Shown here: positions 18,876 through 28,878 of the stretch, one piece after another
Position numbering within the stretch: the stretch's first letter is position 1
Layout of the letters: each line of letters opens with the position of its first letter
Assembly (NCBI GenBank): GCA_025359425.1
Contig: JANYGC010000099.1
Span: 1 to 64,000 of the forward strand
Length of the DNA: 64,000 nt
Direction of reading: 5' to 3'
From: Sphingomonadaceae bacterium
GTDB lineage: Bacteria > Pseudomonadota > Alphaproteobacteria > Sphingomonadales > Sphingomonadaceae
Made by a program: the position numbers and the translations under genes
The notes under the pieces: generated by a model
Told to the model about the DNA's origin: nothing
Databases searched by the model: none
Seen by the model: only the letters and a program-made list of their open reading frames with translations

Positions 18876-19002
18876 CGTTCGTCCTGAGCGAAGTCGAAGG
18901 ACCTGCCGAGCGCAGCCGAGGCGGCCAAGCTCTCGTTTGGCGGAACCGTTGAAGGTTCTCGGCTTCGCTCGAACCACCCTTCGACTTCGCTCAGGGCGAA
19001 CG
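18876..19002. repeat. Paired inverted REP-like element (CCTTCGACTTCGCTCAGG family)
   Basis: Arms 18876-18900 and 18977-19002 are reverse complements at about 24/25 positions. Confidence 0.85.
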
Positions 19003-22763: not shown

Positions 22764-23666
22764 ATGAGTGAGACTGTCGGCCCGCTGAGTTTCCAGGACA
22801 TGATCCTGCGGCTCCACGCCTTCTGGAGCGAACAGGGCTGCCTGATCCTCCAGCCCTATGACATGCGCATGGGCGCGGGGACTTTCCACCCGGCGACCAC
22901 GCTGCGCGCGCTCGGCCCGGAACCGTGGAAGGCCGCTTACGTCCAGCCGAGCCGGCGGCCCACCGATGGCCGCTATGGCGAGAACCCCAACCGGCTGCAG
23001 CATTATTACCAGTACCAGGTGATCCTCAAGCCCAACCCCGCGAACCTGCAGGAGCTGTACCTCGCCAGCCTCGCCGCGATCGGGGTCGATCCGCTGGCGC
23101 ACGATATCCGCTTTGTCGAGGACGATTGGGAAAGCCCAACTTTAGGCGCCTGGGGGCTGGGCTGGGAAGTCTGGTGTGACGGGATGGAAGTCAGCCAGTT
23201 CACCTATTTCCAGCAGGTCGGCGGGTTCGATTGCAAGCCGGTTGCAGGCGAGCTCACCTATGGTCTCGAACGCCTCGCGATGTACATCCAGGGCGTCGAC
23301 AACGTCTATGACTTGCGCTTCAACGACGCGGGGGTCAGCTACGGCGACGTCTTCCTCAAGAACGAGCAGGAGATGTCGAAGTACAACTTCGAGGTCGCCG
23401 ACACCGCCAGCCTGTTCGACGGCTTTGCCAAGGCCGAGGCCGAATGCCAGCGCTGCCTCGATGCGCAAATCCCGCTCGCCGCCTACGAACAGGCGATCGA
23501 GGCGAGCCACCTGTTCAACCTGCTCCAGGCGCGCGGCGTGATCTCGGTCCAGGAACGCGCCAGCTACATCGGCCGCGTGCGCGATCTCGCCAAGGGCAGC
23601 TGCCAGGCGTGGATCGGCAAGAACGAAGCGCAGTGGCAGGCGGATTACCCGGAGTGGGTGTTGTGA
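22764..23666 (+). CDS. glyQ: Glycine--tRNA ligase alpha subunit
   Basis: [58 protein letters not shown]. Confidence 0.98.
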
Positions 23667-23679
23667 GCGGCTACCCTAA

Positions 23680-23794
23680 GATCCTCCCCCACTGGGGGAG
23701 GTGCCCCGCAGGGGCGGCGGGGGCAAGCCGCGCGACCTCACGGCCCCCCACCGTCAGCGCTGCGCGCTGCCACCTCCCCCAAAAGGGGAGGATC
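23680..23794. repeat. Family A palindromic element in glyQ-glyS spacer
   Basis: Ends GATCCTCCCC...GGGGAGGATC; shares CCACCGTCAGCGC..CGCGCTGCCACCTCCCCCAAAAGGGGAGGAT with 58176-58298. Confidence 0.9.
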
Positions 23795-23798
23795 TAGG

Positions 23799-26072
23799 AT
23801 GCCTGACTTCCTCCTTGAACTGCGCTCCGAAGAAATCCCCGCGCGGATGCAGGACGATGCTCGTCAAAATTTGAAGCGCTTGTTTGAAGCCGAACTCGCA
23901 AATGCAGGGATCAAACCGGATAACATCGCAACGTACGCCACGCCTAGACGTCTGACTTTGATCGCGTACGGCCTGCCGCTCGAAACGCTGGCAGCTAGTG
24001 AAGAACTGAAAGGGCCTAAGACTTCGGCTCCGCCTCAAGCGTTGGAGGGGTTTCTCCGTAAGAATGGCTTGACGCAAAGCCAGCTCGTTGATTGCGACGG
24101 GGTTTATTTCGCGACGATCGATGAACCTGGACGTCGAACCGCAGACATTCTCGCCGAAGCAATCCCGGCGATCATCCGTGCGTTTCCTTGGCCCAAATCA
24201 ATGCGTTGGGGCGGCGCATCCGCATCAACCGAAATGACACGTTGGGTTAGGCCGTTGCAAGGTATCGTTGCCCTTCTTGGTGACAATATCGTCCGTTTTG
24301 AAGTCGCTGGTGTGCTAAGCGATTGTCAGACAATTGGACATCGCTTCCTCCATTCCGGCCCAATCACAATCACGAGTGCCAATTCGGATGAGTATGAGGA
24401 CAAACTGCGTAACGCCTTTGTCATCGTCAATCAGGAAGAACGGCGCGCTATCATCTACGAAGGTGCGCAGAGAGCTGCCGCCGATGCTGGTCTAATATTG
24501 GTTCAAGACCCGAGCCTCGTGGATGAAAACGCCGGCCTCACCGAATGGCCAGTGCCTCTGCTCGGGCGCTTTGACGAAGCCTTCCTCGATGTGCCGCCCG
24601 AAGTGATCCAGCTGACCGCGCGGACCAACCAGAAGTACTTCATCTGCCGCGAACGCACGCCTGAGGGTGCAGAGCAGGGCAAGCTCGCCAACGCCTTCAT
24701 CTGCACCGCCAACATCGTCGCTACCGATGGCGGCGCGGCCATCGTCGATGGCAACCGCAAGGTGCTGGCGGCGCGGCTGGCGGATGCGCGGTTCTTCTGG
24801 GAACAGGACCGCAAGAAGACGCTGAGCGAACACGCCGAGGGCCTCGCGCGGATTACCTTCCATGAGAAGCTGGGAACGGTCGCCGACAAGGTCGAGCGGG
24901 TGGCCAAGCTGGCACGGTGGCTGGTTGAGGAAGGCATTGTCACTGAAACTCCCCTCCCCGGTGGGGAGGGGTTGGGGGTGGGGGTTCCCACCTCGCAGGC
25001 GTCGAACACCCATCCCCAACCCCTTCCCTCAAGGGAAGGGGCTTTGCTGGCCGACCAGGCCGAACTCGCCGCACGGCTGTGCAAGGCCGACCTCGTCACC
25101 GAAATGGTCGGCGAATTCCCCGAACTGCAAGGCGTGATCGGCGGTTACTACGCCGCGGACGAAGGCTTGCCCCAAGCCGTCGCGGAGGCGATCCGCGATC
25201 ACTACAAGCCGGTCGGGCAGGGCGACGATGTGCCCACCGCGCCGGTGACGGTGGCGGTGAGTCTGGCGGATAAACTGGATACGCTTTGCCAGTTTTTCCT
25301 AATTGATGAGGCTCCTACAGGTTCAAAAGATCCGTTTGCGCTGCGACGTGCTTCGCTGAGCATCATATCCCTCATCCTCAGTAACAACTTGCGCTTCCGT
25401 CTACAGGATGTGCTGATCAAGGCCGTCGAAGATGATTTGGCGAAGTTTGAAGTAGTTTGGTTCGGCAATCTCGAAACGAAGCTTGCCTCGTTCCTCGCCG
25501 ACCGCCTCAAAGTCCAGCAACGCGAAGCCGGCGTGCGGCACGACCTGATCGACGCGGTGTTCGCGCTCGGCGGGGAGGACGATCTGGTCCGCCTGCTCGC
25601 CCGGGTCCATGCGCTGCAGGCGTTCATCGGCACCGAGGATGGCACCAACCTGCTCGCGGGGTACAAGCGCGCGGCCAATATCCTCAAGAAGGAGGGCTTC
25701 ACTGCCCCCCTCCCCGGTGGGGAGGGGCTGGGGGTGGGGGTTCCACCGCTGGCGTCGAACCCCCATCCCAACCCTTCCCCAACGGGGAAGGGCTTTAAAG
25801 AAACGCTTTCCTACACCCCCGAACCTGCGGAAAAGGCGCTGATGGATGCGCTTTCAACTGCCGGGCCGCAGGCCGCCGCTGCCGTTGTGGCCGAGGACTT
25901 CGCCGGGGCGATGGCTGCGCTGGCCACCTTGCGCTCGGCCGTTGATGCGTTCTTCGATGCCGTGACGGTCAACGATCCCGAGCCTGCGAAGCGCGAAGCC
26001 CGGCTCGGCTTGCTGGCGCGGTTCCGTGACGCGGTTCACGGAGTCGCCGATTTCTCGAAGATCGAGGGGTAA
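23799..26072 (+). CDS. glyS: Glycine--tRNA ligase beta subunit with two repeat-derived insertions
   Basis: 757 aa GlyS-like ORF; inserts PLPGGEGLGVGVPTSQASNTHPQPLPSREG and PLPGGEGLGVGVPPLASNPHPNPSPTGKG. Confidence 0.96.
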   Translation: MPDFLLELRSEEIPARMQDDARQNLKRLFEAELANAGIKPDNIATYATPRRLTLIAYGLPLETLAASEELKGPKTSAPPQALEGFLRKNGLTQSQLVDCDGVYFATIDEPGRRTADILAEAIPAIIRAFPWPKSMRWGGASASTEMTRWVRPLQGIVALLGDNIVRFEVAGVLSDCQTIGHRFLHSGPITITSANSDEYEDKLRNAFVIVNQEERRAIIYEGAQRAAADAGLILVQDPSLVDENAGLTEWPVPLLGRFDEAFLDVPPEVIQLTARTNQKYFICRERTPEGAEQGKLANAFICTANIVATDGGAAIVDGNRKVLAARLADARFFWEQDRKKTLSEHAEGLARITFHEKLGTVADKVERVAKLARWLVEEGIVTETPLPGGEGLGVGVPTSQASNTHPQPLPSREGALLADQAELAARLCKADLVTEMVGEFPELQGVIGGYYAADEGLPQAVAEAIRDHYKPVGQGDDVPTAPVTVAVSLADKLDTLCQFFLIDEAPTGSKDPFALRRASLSIISLILSNNLRFRLQDVLIKAVEDDLAKFEVVWFGNLETKLASFLADRLKVQQREAGVRHDLIDAVFALGGEDDLVRLLARVHALQAFIGTEDGTNLLAGYKRAANILKKEGFTAPLPGGEGLGVGVPPLASNPHPNPSPTGKGFKETLSYTPEPAEKALMDALSTAGPQAAAAVVAEDFAGAMAALATLRSAVDAFFDAVTVNDPEPAKREARLGLLARFRDAVHGVADFSKIEG
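24951..25041. repeat. Family B palindromic element, copy 1, in frame in glyS
   Basis: CCCCTCCCCGGTGGGGAGGGG plus CCATCCCCAACCCCTTCCCTCAAGGGAAGGGG. Confidence 0.92.
25707..25792. repeat. Family B palindromic element, copy 2, in frame in glyS
   Basis: CCCCTCCCCGGTGGGGAGGGG..GGCGTCGAACCCCCATCCCAACCCTTCCCCAACGGGGAAGGG. Confidence 0.92.
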
Positions 26073-26193: not shown

Positions 26194-28878
26194 ATGAGTG
26201 CCAACGTCTACACCTTCGGCGGCGGTGTCACCCATGACGATCCGCGCACCCGCGACAAGACGATTGTCGGCGGCAAAGGCGCAAACCTTGCGGAAATGGC
26301 CGGGATTGGACTGCCGGTACCGCCGGGGTTCACGATTACTACCGAAGAATGCGTGCGCTACCTCGCCGAGGGGGCCCTTCGACAGGCTCAGGGTGATCGG
26401 GAGTTTTCATCAGAACTGCACGCCGAAGTCGCCAAGGCGCTGGGCCATATCGAGCAAACCGTCGGCAAGAAGTTCGGCAATGCAGCCGATCCACTGCTGG
26501 TCTCGGTCCGTTCGGGCGCGCGGGTTTCTATGCCGGGAATGATGGACACCGTGCTCAACCTCGGGCTCAACGATGCGACCGTTGCCGGGCTGGCACAGAC
26601 TTCGGGCGATGCGCGGTTTGCCTGGGATTCATACCGCCGGTTCATCCAGATGTATTCCGACGTGGTGCTCGGCATCGATCACCACCTATTCGAGGATGCG
26701 CTGGAAATCATCAAAGAAGACAACGGCTTTTATGCCGATGTTGAGATGGGCGCGCAGGAATGGCAATTGCTGGTCGGCGAATACAAGGCGATCGTTGCCG
26801 CCCGGCTCGGCCGCGACTTCCCGCAGGATGTGCACGAACAGCTGTGGGGCGCAATCCGCGCGGTGTTCGATAGCTGGGATTCGGACCGCGCCAAGGTTTA
26901 CCGCCGCCTCAACGACATTTCCGGCGCGTGGGGGACCGCAGTCAACGTCCAGGCGATGGTGTTCGGCAACATGGGCGATACCAGCGCCACCGGGGTGGCC
27001 TTCACCCGCGATCCGGCGACCGGCGAAAAGGCCTATTACGGCGAATGGCTGGTCAATGCGCAGGGCGAGGACGTGGTCGCCGGGATCCGCACCCCGCAGT
27101 ACCTGACCGAAGCCTCGCGCATCCGCGCCGGGGCCAAGCCGCTGAGCATGGAAGCAGCAATGCCAGTGGCTTACGGGCAACTGGCAGACGTTTTCGAACT
27201 GCTCGAAGCGCATTACCACGACATGCAGGACATCGAATTCACCGTCGAACGCGGGCACTTGTGGATGCTCCAGACCCGCAGCGGCAAGCGCACCGCCAAG
27301 GCCGCGCTCAAGATGGCGGTGGACATGGTTGGCGAGGGTCTGATCGACGAGAAGACCGCGATCCTGCGGATCGATCCGATGGCGCTCGACCAGTTGCTTC
27401 ACCCCACGCTCGATCCCACGGCGGCGCGCGATGTGCTCACCAAAGGCCTGCCCGCATCGCCCGGCGCAGCTTCGGGCGCGATCGTGCTCGATGCCGATAC
27501 CGCCGAGAAAGCCGCCGGGCGCGGTGAGGCGGTGGTCTTGGTGCGGGTCGAGACCAGCCCCGAGGATATTCACGGCATGCACGCCGCCAAGGGCATTCTG
27601 ACCGCGCGCGGCGGCATGACGTCACACGCCGCAGTGGTAGCGCGCGGGATGGGCCGGCCGTGCGTTTCAGGCGCGGCGGCCGTATCGATTGATCTGGGCA
27701 CTCGCACGCTGCGGATCGGGAAGCGCGAGATGAAGGAAGGCGATCTGATCACGCTCGACGGCACCACCGGTGAGGTCATGGCCGGGCACGTGCCCACCAT
27801 CGAGCCCGAACTGGTCGGCGATTTCGGGGTGTTGATGGCCTGGGCCGACCAGCACCGCCGGATGAAAGTCCGCACCAACGCAGAAACCCCGGCCGATTGC
27901 CGTACCGCGCGGCAGTTCGGGGCCGAGGGGGTGGGACTGTGCCGCACTGAACATATGTTCTTCGATGCCAGCCGCATCGCTGCGGTGCGCCAGATGATCC
28001 TGGCCGAGGACGAGGCCGGACGCCGCAATGCGCTCGCCAAGCTGCTGCCCGAACAGCGCGCCGATTTCCGCGGGATATTCGAGGAAATGGCCGGACTGCC
28101 GGTGACGGTGCGGCTGCTCGATCCGCCGCTGCACGAATTTCTGCCGCACGCCGATGCGGAATTTGCCGAACTGTCCGAAGTGATCGGAATCGGGGTCGAA
28201 ACGCTCAAGCGGCGGGCGGCGGAACTGCATGAATTCAACCCGATGCTGGGGCATCGCGGTTGCCGTCTGGGGATCACTTTCCCGGAAATCTACGAAATGC
28301 AGGCGCGGGCGCTGTTCGAAGCGGCCTGCGATGTGGCTGCGGCGGGCGAAGCGCCGGTGCCCGAAGTGATGGTGCCGCTGGTCGCCACGCGCAAGGAACT
28401 GGCGATCCTCAAGGACCTGATCGACCGCACTGCGCAGGCGGTGTTTGCCGAGCGGGGCCGCACGTTGGCCTATCATGTCGGCACGATGATCGAATTGCCC
28501 CGCGCCGCGCTGATGGCCGGTGAAATCGCCGAGGTGGGCGAGTTCTTCTCGTTTGGAACCAACGATTTGACCCAGACAACTTTGGGCGTTTCGAGGGACG
28601 ATGCGGCACGGTTTCTGGGGGTTTATGTCGAACAGGGCATCTTCCCGCGCGATCCGTTCGTCAGCCTCGATATCGAAGGTGTCGGCCAACTGGTCAGCCT
28701 GGCGGTGGCGCGGGGCAGGGAAACCCGGCCCGATATCAAACTGGGCATCTGCGGCGAGCACGGCGGCGACCCGGCGAGCATTGCATTCTGCGAACTGGTC
28801 GGGCTCGATTACGTCAGCGCCTCGCCCTACCGGGTGCCAATTGCCCGGCTGGCAGCGGCGCAGGCGGCCTTGGCCTAA
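26194..28878 (+). CDS. ppdK: Pyruvate, phosphate dikinase
   Basis: KTIVGGKGANLAEMAGIGLPVPPGFTITTEECV; GILTARGGMTSHAAVVARGMGRPCVSG. Confidence 0.97.
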   Translation: MSANVYTFGGGVTHDDPRTRDKTIVGGKGANLAEMAGIGLPVPPGFTITTEECVRYLAEGALRQAQGDREFSSELHAEVAKALGHIEQTVGKKFGNAADPLLVSVRSGARVSMPGMMDTVLNLGLNDATVAGLAQTSGDARFAWDSYRRFIQMYSDVVLGIDHHLFEDALEIIKEDNGFYADVEMGAQEWQLLVGEYKAIVAARLGRDFPQDVHEQLWGAIRAVFDSWDSDRAKVYRRLNDISGAWGTAVNVQAMVFGNMGDTSATGVAFTRDPATGEKAYYGEWLVNAQGEDVVAGIRTPQYLTEASRIRAGAKPLSMEAAMPVAYGQLADVFELLEAHYHDMQDIEFTVERGHLWMLQTRSGKRTAKAALKMAVDMVGEGLIDEKTAILRIDPMALDQLLHPTLDPTAARDVLTKGLPASPGAASGAIVLDADTAEKAAGRGEAVVLVRVETSPEDIHGMHAAKGILTARGGMTSHAAVVARGMGRPCVSGAAAVSIDLGTRTLRIGKREMKEGDLITLDGTTGEVMAGHVPTIEPELVGDFGVLMAWADQHRRMKVRTNAETPADCRTARQFGAEGVGLCRTEHMFFDASRIAAVRQMILAEDEAGRRNALAKLLPEQRADFRGIFEEMAGLPVTVRLLDPPLHEFLPHADAEFAELSEVIGIGVETLKRRAAELHEFNPMLGHRGCRLGITFPEIYEMQARALFEAACDVAAAGEAPVPEVMVPLVATRKELAILKDLIDRTAQAVFAERGRTLAYHVGTMIELPRAALMAGEIAEVGEFFSFGTNDLTQTTLGVSRDDAARFLGVYVEQGIFPRDPFVSLDIEGVGQLVSLAVARGRETRPDIKLGICGEHGGDPASIAFCELVGLDYVSASPYRVPIARLAAAQAALA
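26375..26393. repeat. REP-like single element inside ppdK
   Basis: CCCTTCGACAGGCTCAGGG read in frame as ALRQAQGD; same family as 60850 and 50200. Confidence 0.8.

Follow-up and report, generated by a model that had tools for sequence, protein, structure and literature searches.

Two palindromic DNA repeats are read through in frame within glyS, the gene for the beta subunit of glycyl-tRNA synthetase (GlyRS), in a Novosphingobium-like bacterium (draft genome of 2.94 Mb, 136 contigs, 94% complete), and both are very likely copies of a mobile palindromic repeat residing in tolerant loops of the enzyme that serve as recurrent landing pads. The repeat is dispersed through the genome, the corresponding loops are empty in many relatives and hold unrelated repeat families in others, and the reading frame of the inserts is filtered.

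The inserts and their host gene

We analyzed a stretch of 64,000 nucleotides of this genome (contig JANYGC010000099.1, positions 1 to 64,000), referred to here as the window, in which the following features are relevant:

22764-23666, + strand: glyQ, GlyRS alpha subunit (PF02091, E 9e-146), sharing an operon with glyS
23679-23795, no strand assigned: palindromic element (AGATCCTCCCCCACTGGGGGAGGTG...CACCTCCCCCAAAAGGGGAGGATCT) of a different type, which occupies the glyQ-glyS gap; 25-nt arms, 88% complementary
23799-26072, + strand: glyS, GlyRS beta subunit, an intact ORF of 757 aa holding both inserts (PF02092, E 9e-179; TIGR00211)
24951-25041, + strand: insert 1, a head-to-head pair of REP-like units, in frame (GlyS aa 385-414)
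24951-24987, + strand: left unit of insert 1, hairpin CCCCTCCCC-GGT-GGGGAGGGG followed by TTGGGGGTGGGGGTTC; matches a G-quadruplex motif
25004-25041, - strand: right unit of insert 1, inverted, hairpin CCCCTTCCC-TTGA-GGGAAGGGG with tail TTGGGGATGGGTGTTC
25707-25792, + strand: insert 2, another head-to-head pair from this family, also in frame (PLPGGEGLGVGVPPLASNPHPNPSPTGKG), situated in the linker preceding the DALR anticodon-binding domain

The initial annotation had described insert 1 as the first copy of a palindromic element lying in frame in an essential aminoacyl-tRNA synthetase. Its DNA (CCCCTCCCCGGTGGGGAGGGGTTGGGGGTGGGGGTTCCC...CCCCTTCCCTCAAGGGAAGGGG), its translation (PLPGGEGLGVGVPTSQASNTHPQPLPSREG) and its inverted-repeat arms (24946-24987 and 25004-25045; 42 nt, 79% complementary) were all confirmed, insert 2 is a further in-frame copy in the same gene, and PF02092 identifies the host as the GlyRS beta subunit. 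No dimeric GlyRS was found in the source genome (94% complete), and glyS, the only and single-copy gene for GlyRS beta, is therefore very probably essential; a second GlyRS that would make it dispensable was rejected for the same reason. The ORF stays in frame on either side of both inserts.

Both inserts follow one plan, in which two units of the form CCCCTCCCC-GGT-GGGGAGGGG-YTGGGGGTGGGGGTTC face each other head-to-head. Stem variants retain pairing (e.g. CCCCTCCCC/GGGGAGGGG and CCCTTCCCC/GGGGAAGGG), and chance matches to the hairpin motifs in shuffled sequence amount to about 0.01. The G-quadruplex motif, a pattern match alone, is retained in nearly all genome copies. Folded as RNA, insert 1 reaches -68 kcal/mol (z -4.6) and insert 2 -71 kcal/mol (z -5.2); a search against Rfam gave no match, and a known RNA element was rejected as its identity on this basis.

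The surroundings contain other repeats. The gap between glyQ and glyS (window 23667-23798) is occupied by the palindromic element listed above; among relatives (loci L102-L181) the two genes mostly overlap by 1-4 nt or are separated by about 100-240 nt. Directly 3' of glyS, a different repeat (CCCTTCGACAGGCTCAGGGTGA; window 26377-26393) is part of the pyruvate phosphate dikinase reading frame, where it encodes the peptide ALRQAQGDR, and its core has three further matches elsewhere in the window. At 18876-19002 there is a long inverted repeat of yet another family (CGTTCGTCCTGAGCGAAGTCGAAGGAC...) with 45-nt arms (82% complementary). Within GlyS itself, residues 521-565 (window 25359-25493) are hypervariable, differing strongly in length and sequence among relatives; no repeat peptide was recognized in this stretch, and the inserts do not account for its variability.

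Empty and filled alleles

Repeat-free alleles, which the initial annotation had proposed to look for, were found in a GlyS alignment of genus relatives, order relatives and about 77 named genomes: both sites are empty in outgroups and in many close relatives, and the segment is neither common to all GlyS orthologues nor devoid of repeat character. At site 1, outgroups (Caulobacter, Brevundimonas, Rhizobiales, Rhodospirillales) and many sphingomonads have a turn of about 9-10 aa, and almost every filled allele has 34-59 aa. In-frame repeats are found there in roughly half of the sphingomonad GlyS proteins and belong to several unrelated families; labelled by eye from the insert peptides, these comprise the A-type of the window (PLP..GEG..HPNPLP) as well as SPxRGGGPAQLVEG..PLHHPADGPPPR, TPAKAG..MPASAGMT, TPDLIRGP..RVKPG and VERSRDT..STALGTN. 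The TPAKAG-type repeat is dispersed through the genomes of several of its carriers. When each of the 38 long site-1 segments was compared with 60 shuffles, 29 were palindromic in DNA at a level matched by at most one shuffle, and 27 at a level reached by none. Palindromic inserts occupy site 2 in fewer species, and elsewhere a non-palindromic segment (..TGEEDPLALVDDPD..) is found. A third loop (GlyS aa 283-294), which holds no repeat in the window, contains in-frame repeats in seven relatives (G011, G018, L106, L172, G016, L126, L170). In glyQ, taken as a control, a repeat-sized net insertion was seen at none of the 71 loci examined. Since the same loops hold unrelated families in relatives, the recurrent feature is the loop of the host, and an essential protein has been struck repeatedly by mobile DNA. 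The earlier picture of one insertion per copy is thereby modified: the inserts are real, but the same loops have received unrelated families in other species.

On a tree of 105 GlyS cores, from which variable regions were taken out and which was built by a quick method with some branches weak, site 1 requires no fewer than 24 changes between presence and absence and 36 of family, parsimony counts which do not separate gain from loss, and the family labels cluster no more than shuffled labels. Differences are also visible within close pairs. In the sister pair G004/L110 (94.3% nucleotide identity), a repeat of the D family is present at site 2 in one member and at site 1 in the other; site 1 is empty in G004 and filled in L110. 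No match to the D family, a resident CGTC-type repeat, was seen in the source genome, against 25 and 15 in the pair, and the L110 site-1 copy bears the CGTC tag. No target-site duplication, as a MITE would leave, was seen in this single close pair, the flanks of which differ between the two genomes. In the pair L150/L152 the family at site 1 has been swapped and a similar repeat is kept at site 2 in both.

Dispersal and candidate mobilizers

A half-unit pattern with at most three mismatches found 29 matches in the source genome, corresponding to about 24 elements, most of which consist of two units inverted head-to-head. Only four copies lie in recognizable genes, and all four are read through in frame: two in glyS, one in a gene for an FtsX-type permease (contig C100) and one in the linker after the lipoyl domain of pyruvate dehydrogenase (PDH) E1-beta (C93). 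The remaining copies are intergenic or in ORFs without a Pfam match, and one (C118) is located at the beginning of a carboxyl transferase gene or ahead of it. At L031:1245-2648, the linker that follows the lipoyl domain of PDH E1-beta shows the repeat-like sequence HPHPHPQPHP..SPLPPVGEAGGGP. At one locus of the source genome (L099; C49:6430-7128) several units of the same family are clustered over about 700 bp, with the spacer sequence repeated between them. Matches to the window's family were found in 86 of the 120 genomes of the genus (0 to 66 per genome); where GlyS carries this family, the genome tends to hold more copies overall (median 26.5 vs 2, p 0.012), also when the source genome is left out (p 0.033).

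The sole Y1 transposase of the source genome is REP-transposase-like, with a score of 69.8 bits against NF047646 that lies below the cut-off of 80. Like TIRYT genes, it is bounded by terminal repeats; these contain CGGGGACACAATACTAAT / GGGGACAC and are unrelated to the window's repeat. The window's family is more numerous in genomes with RAYT-like genes (median 10 vs 1 copies, p 2e-4, no phylogenetic correction), yet a RAYT as dedicated mobilizer was rejected, because none of the 18 RAYT-like loci examined is flanked by the window's repeat and no Y1 transposase was detectable in 8 of 16 high-copy genomes. Phages or plasmids were rejected as vehicles as well, since the repeat had no phage match and only two weak plasmid matches, both from Sphingomonas.

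Reading frame and protein structure

Tryptophan and cysteine together occur once in the used frame of 52 inserts, compared with a mean of 56 and a minimum of 32 in 10,000 draws; native flanks were trimmed, the expectation came from picking at random one of the stop-free frames in each insert's DNA, and related inserts are treated as independent. Judging from residue composition, this argues that the inserts are translated and that the frame in use is filtered by selection. Acidic residues are more common in the used frame (11% vs 3-8% elsewhere), and arginine is rarer in it than in any of the five other frames, with a clear difference in four of them. Three to five of the six frames are open in most inserts. 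The glycine content is the same in the used frame (14.0%) as in the others (13.7%), and there is thus no sign of glycine-sensing; an autoregulation of GlyRS through glycine codons was rejected.

The predicted GlyS structure (pLDDT 89.7, pTM 0.83) matches solved GlyRS structures, e.g. 7yse and 7eiv of E. coli. Mapped on this model, as had been suggested earlier, insert 1 is placed between helices 361-377 and 412-427, and helices 613-631 and 676-697 enclose insert 2. Both are predicted to sit in disordered loops between helices, and their low pLDDT is as expected for disorder.

Origin and maintenance of the inserts

We propose that the repeat is a short (about 90-120 bp), non-autonomous element of two REP-like hairpin units facing each other, which would have moved into two loops of the sole GlyRS beta subunit, presumably mobilized in trans by a transposase. 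The repeat DNA is poor in stop codons (usually 3-5 of 6 frames open) and can therefore land without truncating the protein. Selection would then retain an insertion only where the loop is tolerant and the frame yields a flexible Pro/Gly/Ala/Ser/Glu-rich linker free of Trp and Cys. The loops act, on this reading, as permissive landing pads, at which other sphingomonads have been struck by their own resident families. The effect on the enzyme is probably near-neutral, such that the inserts would survive by tolerance rather than by benefit.

Each loop might instead have been entered only once, by an ancient insert that later families overwrote via recombination or gene conversion between palindromes, so that the sites recur because a repeat was already present there. 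Filled alleles of different families share downstream junction residues (..ELADQAEL / ..LADLAEQ), and the swap at site 1 with retention of a similar repeat at site 2 in L150/L152 is consistent with overwriting. However, the tree intermingles empty with filled alleles (24 changes), G004 is empty at site 1 beside the filled L110, and many clean losses would still be required; we thus regard this as unlikely to be the general explanation, while part of the family turnover may have arisen in this way. It is even less probable that the inserts are kept for a benefit, with the flexible linker or the mRNA hairpin tuning GlyRS activity or expression. The filling of site 1 in about half of the sphingomonad GlyS proteins, the similar insert lengths across families and the very stable mRNA hairpins (-68 and -71 kcal/mol) could be read in this sense, but many close relatives do without an insert, the inserts have no sequence in common, glycine is not enriched in the used frame, and disordered peptides free of Trp and Cys are explained by tolerance alone.

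Finally, contigs might have been joined wrongly at the element, given that it is a repeat and that the source genome is a 136-contig draft. This reading is largely refuted, and we give it next to no weight, as the ORF is intact and in frame around two inserts and long contigs of named isolate genomes show the same phenomenon (e.g. L119, with a contig of 3.0 Mb). The in-frame repeats in GlyS are a genuine phenomenon resembling that of the Rickettsia palindromic elements (RPEs). A wider interpretation, which we put forward tentatively and consider somewhat doubtful, is that the three GlyS loops and the glyQ-glyS junction form a long-lived pad on which unrelated families of mobile palindromes replace one another across the bacterial order. 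If so, small mobile DNA would have a lasting niche in essential enzyme genes, perhaps with some target preference, and copies in essential genes would be more than rare survivors of random hits. The probably essential, single-copy glyS in any case allows empty alleles, inserts and family swaps to be compared as a series, which makes the mover, the choice of frame and loop, and the neutrality of such repeats directly testable in culturable bacteria.

Comparison with known palindromic repeats

Two inverted REP units can constitute a single mobile unit, the REPIN, that is able to fold into a long hairpin. Most copies in the source genome share this inverted head-to-head layout of two units; unlike in the REPIN/RAYT system, the GTAG tag at the unit head is absent from the window's family, and the repeat flanks no RAYT gene (0/18 loci).

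GTAG and CGTC REPs are both described in Di Nocera et al. (2013; PMC3733652), the latter from alphaproteobacteria, sphingomonads included, and often arranged as head-to-head dimers. CGTC REPs are defined there by a CGTC tag beside a stem of 8-9 bp and a CCA-like tail; the window units, which have TTGGGGGTGGGG at the unpaired side, lack this tag and do not fit the definition, whereas the D-family repeat at glyS site 1 of L110 does carry the CGTC tag. The same paper reports intragenic REPs, including some in tRNA synthetases of Erythrobacter litoralis and Sphingopyxis alaskensis, and mentions no dedicated transposase for CGTC REPs. About the same insertion site is given only for Xanthomonas recB, the other genes of this category differing, and the text available contains no description of a GlyS hotspot, although GlyS may be among the tRNA synthetases listed. 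Nor was a report of a hotspot in GlyS loops found in our literature search, which covered few subscription papers.

RPEs (Ogata et al. 2000), as summarized in PMC2229807 and PMC10969869, are dispersed palindromic repeats of about 100-150 bp, found both in intergenic regions and in frame in conserved enzymes. In Rickettsia, a guanylate kinase with such an in-frame palindromic repeat is expressed and active, and RPEs have been described as unusually frequent among such fusions. The initial annotation had likened insert 1 to the logic of these elements, a translation-tolerant repeat landing in a protein, and with regard to mechanism this likeness is borne out by the empty alleles, the dispersed family, the in-frame position and the filtered frame. 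The window's family is likewise palindromic, dispersed and in frame in conserved proteins, but it belongs to a different bacterial order and lacks the CGTC tag of RPE-4 and RPE-6 (a comparison by tag), and the analogy is drawn here for mechanism, not for RPE membership. In contrast to the situation in Rickettsia, the loops of a single enzyme are shared by several unrelated families among sphingomonad species.

Within the reach of these tests, the element represents a new family of an already known kind, in-frame REPs having been reported in 2013, including some in sphingomonad tRNA synthetases. Protein-coding palindromes occur well beyond Rickettsia and Wolbachia, in free-living relatives, and the apparently new aspect is the repeated use, by multiple families, of loops in a single essential enzyme as a landing pad.
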